Positions 9,774 to 35,147 of a stretch of DNA of 48,067 nt are shown piece by piece. The stretch spans positions 1 through 48,067 of the forward strand of contig CAIZEE010000503.1 in the NCBI GenBank assembly GCA_903931835.1, in the 5' to 3' direction. The notes beneath the pieces are model-generated. The model had not been told where the DNA came from. It saw only the letters and a list, made by a program, of their open reading frames with translations, and did not search any database. Source of the stretch: an uncultured Elstera sp. (GTDB taxonomy: Bacteria > Pseudomonadota > Alphaproteobacteria > Elsterales > Elsteraceae). The translations under genes and the position numbers were made by a program. How positions within the stretch are numbered: position 1 is the stretch's first letter; each line of letters opens with the position of its first letter.

Positions 9774-10439
9774 ATGACCCCTATTGATGACGCTGCCCGC
9801 ATGACTGCCCGCATTCTGCTGGAGATTGAGGCGATCACGATCCGCCCGGCAGAGCCGTTCATCCTGACCTCCGGCTGGGCAAGCCCGGTCTATGTCGATT
9901 GCCGCAAGGTCATTTCGTTCCCGCGTGCCAGGCGCGCGATCATCGACGCTGCGGTGGCAAAGATCGAACGCGAAATCGGCTTCGAATCAATCGATGCCAT
10001 AGCGGGCGGGGAGACGGCGGGCATTCCCTATGCCGCGTGGATCGCCGATCGCCTGGGCCTGCCGATGCTCTATGTCCGCAAGAAGCCCAAAGGATTTGGC
10101 CGTAACGCACAGATCGAAGGGATTTTCCCGGAGGGTGCGCGCGTGCTGCTGGTCGAGGATCTGGCGAGTGACGGCAAGAGCAAGCTGATCTTTGTCGACG
10201 CGCTGCGCAAGGCCGGTGCGGTGGTCAGCGACGCTTTGGTCGTCTTCTTCTACTCAGCCTTCCCGCAAGGGCTGAAGGTGCTGGACGAGGCTGGGGTTCG
10301 CCTGCTGTCGCTCGCCACTTGGGAAAATGTCCTGGCTATCGCCGATGCCGATCCGCGCTTTTCATCCGATGACATTTTGGAAGTGCGCCGCTTCCTGGCC
10401 GACCCGGCGGCTTGGTCCGCAGCGCATGGCGGCGCTTAG
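9774..10439 (+). CDS. pyrE: Orotate phosphoribosyltransferase
   Basis: FILTSGWASPVYVDCRKVISFPR, GGETAGIPYAAWIAD, RVLLVEDLASDGKSKLIFVDALR (PRPP loop). Stop TAG at 10437-10439. Confidence 0.95.
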   Translation: MTPIDDAARMTARILLEIEAITIRPAEPFILTSGWASPVYVDCRKVISFPRARRAIIDAAVAKIEREIGFESIDAIAGGETAGIPYAAWIADRLGLPMLYVRKKPKGFGRNAQIEGIFPEGARVLLVEDLASDGKSKLIFVDALRKAGAVVSDALVVFFYSAFPQGLKVLDEAGVRLLSLATWENVLAIADADPRFSSDDILEVRRFLADPAAWSAAHGGA

Positions 10440-10540
10440 AGGGCGATCGTTACACGCGCCTTCACCTTGAAGCGCGAATCACTCTCTATTTTATGAAGAG
10501 GGTCTGATTCGCGGTTCAATTTGAACCGATCAGACCCTAG
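10436..10540. repeat. Bipartite double-hairpin intergenic repeat, copy 1 (full length)
   Basis: Hairpin A 10437-10488 (TAGAGGGCGATCGTT...CTCTCTA), 10-nt linker, hairpin B 10499-10540 (AGGGTCTGAT-TCG-CGGTTCAA-T-TTGAACCG-ATCAGACCCT-AG). Same modules at 21308-21413 (inverted) and 34668-34737 (decayed). Confidence 0.85.
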
Positions 10541-21307: not shown

Positions 21308-21413
21308 CTAGGGTCTGATGGGCTCAAATTGAACCGCGAATCAGATCCTGCCTGTATGAATAGAGCGCGAGGCACGTTTCAGGTTGATTGAACCCGAAAC
21401 GATCGCGCTCTAG
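21308..21413. repeat. Bipartite double-hairpin intergenic repeat, copy 2 (inverted relative to copy 1)
   Basis: Hairpin B 21308-21349 (39/42 identical to copy 1 after reverse complement), 11-nt linker, hairpin A 21361-21412 (TAGAGCGCGA..CGTTTCaGGTT gattg AACCcGAAACG..TCGCGCTCTA). CTAG at both ends. Confidence 0.85.
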
Positions 21414-32717: not shown

Positions 32718-34657
32718 TCGCGATCGTTGTCGCTCCTCCGGCGCCGCAATTCATCCCGACGGAGGCGATCAACCAACCGATCACGGTAGCAAGTCCGCCT
32801 AGCTGGCTGTCGGCGGTTCCGCCCGGATCGACGATCCAGGCAGTCGTGCAATCGACCAACGCCGATGGCTTGGTCACGGTTGTCAGCAGCGCTGGTACGT
32901 TGAGCTTTCAGGCCCCGACCACGCTGGTCAACACCACCCAGATCCTGCTTCAGGTTACGCAGTCTGGTGCCGGGCAGTCGCAGCCTCAGCTTCAGATCAT
33001 CCAAGTCACAGCGCCAGCTCCACCGCCGGCATACAACACGGCTGTCCTAACCGACATAGCGCCGCAGGGGATCGCGTCGCTGCCGATTCCAGGCGCGATC
33101 GTGGTTGCCCAGGTCGAACGGACATTGGCTCCGGTCGATGGCCCGACTTTGGCCCTGCAGAACGCCGTCGGCGCTGCGGCAGCCACTTCACCAGGCAGCG
33201 TCGCGTCGTCGCCGATACTAGCCGGCGCTTCGCCCTTGGCTGGCGTGGTCGGTGCCACGGCGATCAATACGGCGGTAGTGCCGCCGACGGCAACATTGCC
33301 TACCGTTCCGACCGCCTTGCTGGCACAGGCTCTGGCCAGCACGCCGGCAACCGGCGCCATCACCGGTCAGGCGATTCTCCCAGGTCAAGCAACGCCCTAC
33401 CAGTCACCGAGCAGCGGTCAGCAACCCCCAGAGGAGGAGACCACTGGCACGGCTGGGCAGCCGACTCCCGCAACCGCTGGTCAGGCTGCGGCGCCCAACC
33501 CGGGCGCAGGCGCCCCGGCCACTGCGCAAGTGCCGACAGGACCGACGGTCAACGCTCAGACAGCGGCGCCGACGCAAGCTCCGACCAGTCCCGCCACGTC
33601 GGGGGCGCCAACGACCACCGCGACGGTGGCCACGCCATCCCTGGCGCCGGGGAGTCAATCGGTTCCGGCCGCGTTGGCGAATACCACAGTTGGTCAGCGG
33701 CTCGCCGTGCAGATCGTCAATATCACCCCACCCGGCGCGTCCCAGTATTCTGCAGTCGCAGCGGCCGATCCCAATGCAGCAGGTGCTGCCACTGCCACTG
33801 CCACTGCCTCGGCGGCGAAGGCGGCTTCCAGTTTTGTCGCAACGGTCGTCGGCAGCGATGCGTCGGGACAACCCATCCTGTCGTCCGGGCCGCTACTGAT
33901 CACCCTTGCCACCTCGGCACCGCCGCCTGGAACCAAGATCACGCTCGCCGTTGTGCCGGAACAGGTATCCGCAGCATCGGCCGCCGCCATCCCAGCGTCG
34001 GGCGATGTGGCGCCTGCGGCGGCATTGCTGACGGCATCGCAGGGTACCGCCGCTGCGGCGGCGGTTAATGCGCTGATGCCGCAGGTCGGGCCGGCCCTTG
34101 CCGCCCAGATGGCGTTCTATGCCGGCGCTTTGCAGCAGGGCGATATCAGGGTCTGGCTCGGCGATGCCGCGCGCGCCTCGCTCGATCGCACCCAGCGTGG
34201 CCGGCAGGCATTGTCATCGGTCGGCGACGATATGGCTAATACCCAGGAGGTCAATGCCAGTGCGGGGCCAGGAAACTGGCAGGCGATGACGATTCCCTTC
34301 GCCAATGGCGCCGTCGTCGATCCGATCCGCCTTTATGTGATGCAGACCGATCCTGATGAGGAAGGCGACGCTAAGAACAAGCAGTCATCCGATGCCACGC
34401 GGTTTTTGGTCGATGTCCAGTTGAGCAAGCTTGGCCTGTTCCAGATCGACGGGTTCGCCCGTCCGGACCGGCTCGATCTGATCATCCGCACGCCGCAACC
34501 GCTGAACCCAGCGGTCAAGGCAGGCATCGAACAGGTCTATGTCAATGTCAGCTCGGCGCGTGGCCTGGGCGGCGTGATCGCCTTTCAGGTGGCGCCACCG
34601 GTGGTGCCACCGACGCCGCGGCCTCCGCCGCGTCCATCAGCCGGAATATTGGTCTAA
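32714..34657 (+). CDS. Divergent FliK-like (flagellar hook-length control) protein
   Basis: Overlaps flhG stop within the flagellar operon. Long Ala/Pro/Thr/Gln-rich middle. C-term GNWQAMTIPFANGAVVDPIRLYVMQ...TRFLVDVQLSKLGLFQIDGFARPDRLDLIIRT resembles a FliK C-terminal domain. Confidence 0.55.
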   Translation: MIAIVVAPPAPQFIPTEAINQPITVASPPSWLSAVPPGSTIQAVVQSTNADGLVTVVSSAGTLSFQAPTTLVNTTQILLQVTQSGAGQSQPQLQIIQVTAPAPPPAYNTAVLTDIAPQGIASLPIPGAIVVAQVERTLAPVDGPTLALQNAVGAAAATSPGSVASSPILAGASPLAGVVGATAINTAVVPPTATLPTVPTALLAQALASTPATGAITGQAILPGQATPYQSPSSGQQPPEEETTGTAGQPTPATAGQAAAPNPGAGAPATAQVPTGPTVNAQTAAPTQAPTSPATSGAPTTTATVATPSLAPGSQSVPAALANTTVGQRLAVQIVNITPPGASQYSAVAAADPNAAGAATATATASAAKAASSFVATVVGSDASGQPILSSGPLLITLATSAPPPGTKITLAVVPEQVSAASAAAIPASGDVAPAAALLTASQGTAAAAAVNALMPQVGPALAAQMAFYAGALQQGDIRVWLGDAARASLDRTQRGRQALSSVGDDMANTQEVNASAGPGNWQAMTIPFANGAVVDPIRLYVMQTDPDEEGDAKNKQSSDATRFLVDVQLSKLGLFQIDGFARPDRLDLIIRTPQPLNPAVKAGIEQVYVNVSSARGLGGVIAFQVAPPVVPPTPRPPPRPSAGILV

Positions 34658-34667
34658 CGTCGGCGAC

Positions 34668-34737
34668 AGCGCGATCGCACGTTATTCCATCACGGTAAAG
34701 CCGATTCGCGGTTCAATCTGAACCGTTCAGACCCTAG
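34668..34737. repeat. Bipartite intergenic repeat, copy 3 (decayed)
   Basis: GATTCGCGGTTCAATCTGAACCGTTCAGACCCTAG (34703-34737) is 33/35 identical to copy 1. Upstream AGCGCGATCG (34668-34677) matches the hairpin A start; the middle is shortened. Confidence 0.75.
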
Positions 34738-35147
34738 TGATCGCGGCGGAATGACTCGATCGCGACATCGTCCAACTGGATCTGTTCGCGCCGATTGGCG
34801 TCAGCCCGGGCGCGGCGGCTGCGATTGGCGTTAGCGACCTCGAATTTCTTTAGCTCGGTAAACGCTTCGGTCAGCTCCTCCATCGCCGTCTCGATCTGGC
34901 GTTGAACCCCCTCCACCGAATGCTCAAGCGTGCGGCGGCGTTCCACCACCGCAGCCGCATAGGGTCCATAGGCGAAGGTAAGATCAGCGTGGGACGAGGT
35001 GAGCCCCTGTTCCTGTTGCACTTCGTCGTTCAGCCGAGCGATCGCATCCGACAGTTTGGCGGCCAGCGCGCGCAGGTCGTTCAGCTTGCGGCGCTTCTCC
35101 TCAAGCTCCCATTTGCGGACGCGGATGAGTGTTGGCAGGGACTTCAT
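34734..35147 (-). CDS. fliJ: FliJ-like flagellar export chaperone
   Basis: 137 aa coiled-coil (LIRVRKWELEEKRRKLNDLRALAAKLSDAIARLNDEVQQEQ...), overlaps fliI stop. Confidence 0.8.
   Translation of the reverse strand: MKSLPTLIRVRKWELEEKRRKLNDLRALAAKLSDAIARLNDEVQQEQGLTSSHADLTFAYGPYAAAVVERRRTLEHSVEGVQRQIETAMEELTEAFTELKKFEVANANRSRRARADANRREQIQLDDVAIESFRRDH

Follow-up and report, generated by a model that had tools for sequence, protein, structure and literature searches.

In a 48,067-nucleotide stretch of DNA from an uncultured Elstera sp. (hereafter the window), the gap between two convergent genes is filled by one folded element, both ends of which are stop codons of the adjoining genes. This raises the questions of what kind of element it is, and why its ends should fall on stop codons. 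We herein report copies of this element in the window, in the source genome and in other Alphaproteobacteria, and consider how it may have come to lie where it does. The main new information is the insertion site of a real, mobile-looking, CTAG-targeted repeat.

The element and its neighbours

The features of copy 1 are as follows.

10437–10539: element copy 1, two hairpins, filling the gap between convergent genes
10437–10488, + strand: module (hairpin) A; inner stem decayed; GAATC (a GANTC site) at about 10475–10480 in the linker-side arm
10489–10498, + strand: linker of about 10 nt; family consensus nTTCATATnGT
10499–10540, + strand: module (hairpin) B; TCG bulge (consensus TCA) giving GATTC; terminal CTAG at 10537–10540
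10437–10439, + strand: TAG, element end and stop of the + gene 9774–10439
9774–10439, + strand: phosphoribosyltransferase gene (PF00156), named pyrE in the sequence-only reading
10537–10539, − strand: CTA, element end and stop of the − gene 10537–11847/11916
10537–11847/11916, − strand: pentapeptide repeat protein gene (PF00805)

The sequence, coordinates and two-hairpin fold first proposed for copy 1 are correct (minimum free energy −44.2 kcal/mol; z −6.6 against shuffles), as are the stops proposed for its two ends. It is nevertheless a worn copy, in which the inner stem of A deviates from the family consensus.

Two further copies lie in the window.

21308–21413, − strand: copy 2, full element, with CTAG flanking both sides, between tandem − genes
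34655–34737, + strand: copy 3, decayed module A and well-kept module B (34697–34737)
34734–34736: CTA, end of copy 3 and stop of the − gene 34734–35147 (FliJ, PF02050)

The recurrence of the hairpin–linker–hairpin architecture at these two places, claimed from the letters, is thus real, with B intact and A decayed in copy 3. Copy 2 is reversed in orientation relative to copy 1 and neither of its ends is a stop (the left gene starts 4 nt away and the right gene stops 8 nt away), and copy 3 has only one end on a stop codon. A gene for a protein with a histone deacetylase domain (PF00850; 21421–22347) adjoins copy 2.

A family of two-module repeats in the source genome

In the source genome (774 contigs, 4.29 Mb), blastn returned 64 matches, inverted self-matches included, and a covariance model built from 24 full copies placed the element, full, solo or decayed, at about 50 distinct sites; the statistics given below for this genome are based on about 48 copies. 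Nearly all copies are intergenic, and the element measures 103–105 bp. Its consensus reads TAGAGTGCGATCGTTTCAGGTTGA..TCAACCTGAAACG-TGA-ATCGCCCTCTA, the linker nTTCATATnGT, and then TAGGGTCTGAT-TCA-CGGTTCAATTTGAACCGATCAGACCCTA. Because the reverse complement of hairpin A lines up with B, the element consists of two diverged inverted copies of one module with a linker of about 10 nt between them, a relation missed in the sequence-only reading. In each hairpin, a 3-nt bulge (TCA) in the linker-side arm gives rise to GATTC, which could serve as a CcrM site.

Pairing in the stems is retained in 92.4% of cells, and six pairs are changed on both sides. Covariation between the stem arms, suggested beforehand as a check, appears as 10 doubly changed cells, where shuffles give 3.2 and not one of 500 reaches as many, although further pair types do not exceed shuffles and sliding the pairing by +2 likewise reaches 10 doubly changed cells. 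A search of Rfam with the element gave no match. The original proposal of a dispersed palindromic intergenic repeat, of the class that holds RIME, Bru-RS and REP-like elements, is therefore supported by the genome-wide copies, their intergenic location, the covariation and the ends on stop codons; the class now narrows to repeats like the Caulobacter CIR (CcrM-associated intergenic repeats), and membership among REP elements moved by RAYT transposases finds no support. The bias toward convergent gene pairs, proposed as a check, is only moderate in the source genome (21/45 vs. 30/108, p 0.04), and other genomes show no evident bias (23/80 classifiable cases).

Some copies stand in tandem and have a terminal CTAG in common (L014/L025 on G000:C115, where G000 is the source genome; L163:6546-6775; L196:3686-3985), and look as if one copy had been inserted into the end of another.

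Distribution and module lengths

The element is absent from eight genomes of the source's own family. When the pattern TAGRGNNNGATTCACG was searched in 385 alphaproteobacterial genomes, many copies were found in few genomes: 39 in G036, 32 in the source, 25 in G359, 10 in G086, eight in G242 and six in G142. The reversed pattern, used as a control, gave 0–1 matches. Other genomes showed several isolated matches with no second arm, which look like chance. When named genomes were scanned for the two-module frame, at least 112 stretches were recovered; among the matches listed, every record named to class or lower is alphaproteobacterial, and the carriers include Hyphomicrobium, Filomicrobium, Rhodospirillales, Magnetovibrio, Acidocella, Caulobacteraceae and others. 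Some 25 alphaproteobacterial genomes hold the frame with differing inner stems; across genera, the inner stems vary whereas the feet, linker and bulge are constant.

Among 101 elements (202 modules), linkers are 9–12 nt long and module lengths fall into classes of 41–42, 49–56, 61–68 and 73–78 nt, being mostly 42, 51–52, 63–65 and 75. This clustering exceeds a uniform null after similar stems are collapsed into 26 types (P 0.0005), with shared ancestry not fully removed, and the period of the classes is poorly fixed at 11–13. The quantised lengths suggest that the element acts as phased double-stranded DNA, which is offered as a reading rather than a result.

Element ends and stop codons

Gene ends were called with a codon-usage gene caller, and solo modules with a boundary offset of 1 nt were scored as exact. 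Stops fall exactly on the terminal TAG at 34/62 element-facing gene ends in the source genome (counted by hand) and at 39/101 in other genomes, so that the coincidence noticed at copy 1 is general. Genes entering the element in another frame number only four in the source and two in the other genomes, which against a one-in-three null gives p 1e-12 and 1e-16, respectively.

A further comparison is with CTAG sites that lie outside genes and carry no element, which are at stops in 15/31 cases at the source loci, in 51/247 at the named-genome loci and in 132/378 in G472. We take G472 to be C. vibrioides, its CcrM being 100% identical to that of C. crescentus. Against this background, the source elements at stops (25/48) match the element-free sites of the same genome, and the other genomes show roughly twice as many stop-coincident elements as the harmless CTAG background predicts (p 1e-4). 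Both ends lie on stops in 9/25 source copies, compared with 10/198 background CTAG-stop sites (p 3e-5), and these nine copies lie between convergent genes. Owing to the both-end and two-fold excesses, target choice combined with purifying selection is insufficient to explain all of the coincidence. In the literature searched, we found no previous description of CTAG targeting at stop codons.

Empty sites and the CTAG target

A clean empty site was found within genus g140, where G142 reads ggcgcCTAG[element]CTAGttcc and G242 reads ggcgcCTAGttcc. The flanks of the G142 element join at a single CTAG in G242, and the gene ends at the same stop without the element. Since the outgroups G323 and G395 have CGAA at this site, the pair could instead record a precise excision. 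The element-free orthologues in G282 of genes that face elements in G359 stop at the same codon in all four stop-coincident cases (L228, TAA for TAG; L229, TAG, with CTAG intact in G282; L230, TAG; L225, TGA), and the elements thus occupy stops that already existed. Apparently, the element inserts at CTAG and duplicates the four letters; the duplication is seen letter for letter at the one clean empty site, where a duplication of TA and one of CTAG look the same. The target site duplication looked for in miniature inverted-repeat elements (MITEs) is accordingly present, as CTAG at that site and at consistent sites in G282.

Proposed mobilisation

IS5-family (DUF4096) copies occur in 6/12 genomes searched, 16 of them in G036, and in the 13 G036 copies that were aligned each end is CTAG or TTAG. 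Three copies in G036 (L362, L371 and L374) sit exactly on the terminal CTAG of an element, as does an IS481-family copy (L035:1636-2680), so the element ends act as targets for insertion sequences. These IS copies have their target in common with the element and differ from it in terminal sequence; with a shared target and unshared ends, a CTAG-specific DDE transposase is something we infer indirectly. The outer arms of the element are inverted repeats, and no parent IS with the same terminal repeats was found in the loci searched. The IS5-family (PF13340) copies were considered as a parent and set aside, as their ends differ from those of the element. Open reading frames between single modules were likewise considered as an autonomous version, and the six pairs proved to be ordinary genes or separate elements, with an IS481-family copy inserted at an element end in one case. 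The carriers G389, G242, G142, G390 and G391 yielded no DUF4096 match, which speaks against a need for exactly that group everywhere.

Taken together, we favour, as the probable explanation, a CIR-like, non-autonomous, MITE-like element that inserts at CTAG and is mobilised by a CTAG/YTAR-specific DDE transposase. Two inverted hairpin modules, separated by roughly one DNA turn of linker, would enter a CTAG site as double-stranded DNA and, through duplication of TA or CTAG, come to be bounded by CTAG on both sides. Because CTAG contains TAG whichever strand is read, a copy inserted at a TAG stop would restore that stop, and such an insertion would be harmless and retained, while insertions within genes would be lost. 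The mobiliser would act in trans and may belong to the IS5 or IS481 family. The linker-side bulge may distinguish the inner arms from true ends and so restrict use to the outer CTAG ends, and GATTC in the bulge may let CcrM methylation time the use of the ends. Directly observed are the copies, their frame and CTAG ends, the one clean empty site with CTAG, the native stops at empty sites and the CTAG ends of IS5-family copies in a carrier genome; the mobility mechanism, the mobiliser, the function of the bulge and the role of CcrM are what we infer here.

Alternative explanations

Copies might instead be kept for a role in RNA, as bidirectional terminators or stabilisers of mRNA 3′ ends between convergent genes. 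The strong fold, the compensatory stem changes (10 cells vs. 3.2 expected), the moderate convergent bias and the both-end stop excess of the source genome all suit such a role, but a terminator scan detected neither a T-tract nor a terminator-like site, many copies stand between tandem genes or upstream of a gene, and steps of about 11 nt in total length suit B-DNA better than RNA arms; we regard this as unlikely, though it is the strongest of the rivals. A methylation-dependent regulatory site (CcrM/GcrA) kept for host use, as has been guessed for CIR, draws on the retention of GANTC in source copies (22/24 in A and 18/24 in B) and on a CcrM-like gene in 117/119 Caulobacteraceae. Yet GANTC sits in the bulge of source-type elements and in the loop of CIR-like ones, several subtypes have no GANTC in one module, and copies are mostly at the 3′ ends of genes; the N of GANTC varies no more than other positions of module B, a comparison confounded with the pairing constraint. 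A host role of this kind therefore appears improbable.

Two other accounts have very little probability. One is that the element is a REP/BIME moved by a RAYT (Y1_Tnp) transposase, given that its bulged hairpins, paired inverted modules and intergenic position at 3′ ends are REP/BIME-like, and that the source genome has one RAYT-like Y1_Tnp gene (L031; G000:C35:457-780). That gene is flanked by TATAGTGTCCC repeats unrelated to the element, Y1_Tnp had no match in 13/15 carrier or related genomes, the complete G036 among them, and CTAG at both ends and in the empty site is not RAYT-like. The other, equally remote, is that insertion within gene ends truncates genes, with the element supplying a new stop; its ends do read TAG both ways, and the outgroup gene at the G142 site seems, by eye, 5–8 codons longer. 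The same stop codon is nevertheless present without the element in 4/4 G359/G282 cases and in G242, and entry in another frame is nearly absent.

Comparison with known repeats

Searched de novo over 1.1 Mb, G472 yielded elements of 112–116 bp with CTAG ends, TAGAG feet, GANTC in the loop and a linker of 11–12 nt with TTTGATT; 4/6 coincide with stops. Other abundant palindromic intergenic families are present in the same genome (L345:2620-2774, L327:8031-8144 and L345:12402-12532), the CCTCCCCC.. type at more than 20 places in the 1.1 Mb and the GTCATCCCGG.. type at 10–15. CIR1–CIR4 were described as CcrM-associated intergenic repeats of Caulobacter (Chen and Shapiro 2003, cited in PMC2229807, PMC10969869), and the G472 elements fit the published description (PMC2229807).

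Compared with CIR through that description and the G472 copies, the source element is of the CIR-like kind and a distinct variant. It has the two hairpins and short linker in about 110 bp, GANTC (in the bulge), an intergenic location, many copies and TA at its termini. With the G472 elements it shares size, two hairpins and a linker, intergenic position, CTAG ends, TAGAG feet, the TTTGATT linker, a linker-side bulge 10–12 bp from the foot, and the coincidence with stops. The two kinds differ in that the source element has GATTC formed by the TCA bulge of each hairpin, whereas G472 has GANTC in the loop and a bulge of 4–5 nt with another sequence. A 3-nt linker-side bulge is present in 190/200 source-type modules (one module per element being partly selected by the search pattern), and one of 4–5 nt in 8/9 CIR-like modules of G472. 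G472 gave no match to the GATTCA frame, and 10 further Caulobacteraceae genomes gave no more than one each.

REP/BIME elements with RAYT resemble the source element in their bulged hairpins, inverted pairs and intergenic position; the source element differs in having no RAYT link, CTAG-specific ends and longer modules. Prokaryotic MITEs (RUP, Correia/NEMIS, ERIC; PMC2229807) are likewise short, non-autonomous and mostly intergenic with a TA-type duplication, but the source element forms two separate hairpins rather than pairing end to end, and no parent IS was found for it. Bru-RS1 and Bru-RS2 of Brucella and RIME of Rhizobium are palindromic intergenic repeats as well, a likeness of size and architecture that serves as a lead only; Bru-RS is 103–106 bp long (PMC2267715, PMC10800456), and a YTAR site within Bru-RS1 is a target of IS711, which duplicates TA on insertion (PMC3163539). 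A more speculative view, to which we give a limited chance, is that CIR, this element and perhaps Bru-RS and RIME form a helically phased, CTAG-targeted superfamily throughout the class, in which a one-sided bulge one turn from each foot would distinguish outer from inner ends and, in the source variant, a CcrM site in the bulge would tie transposition to passage of the replication fork.

The CIR-type group comprises widespread, poorly understood alphaproteobacterial repeats, for which a 2007 review listed the target duplication of CIR as unknown and asked for a mobility mechanism (PMC2229807). The empty sites provide a CTAG target and explain why the repeats cap genes at stop codons, and they point to a testable class of transposase. 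The shared feet, linker, bulge and length steps link the Caulobacter repeat to a wider alphaproteobacterial group.
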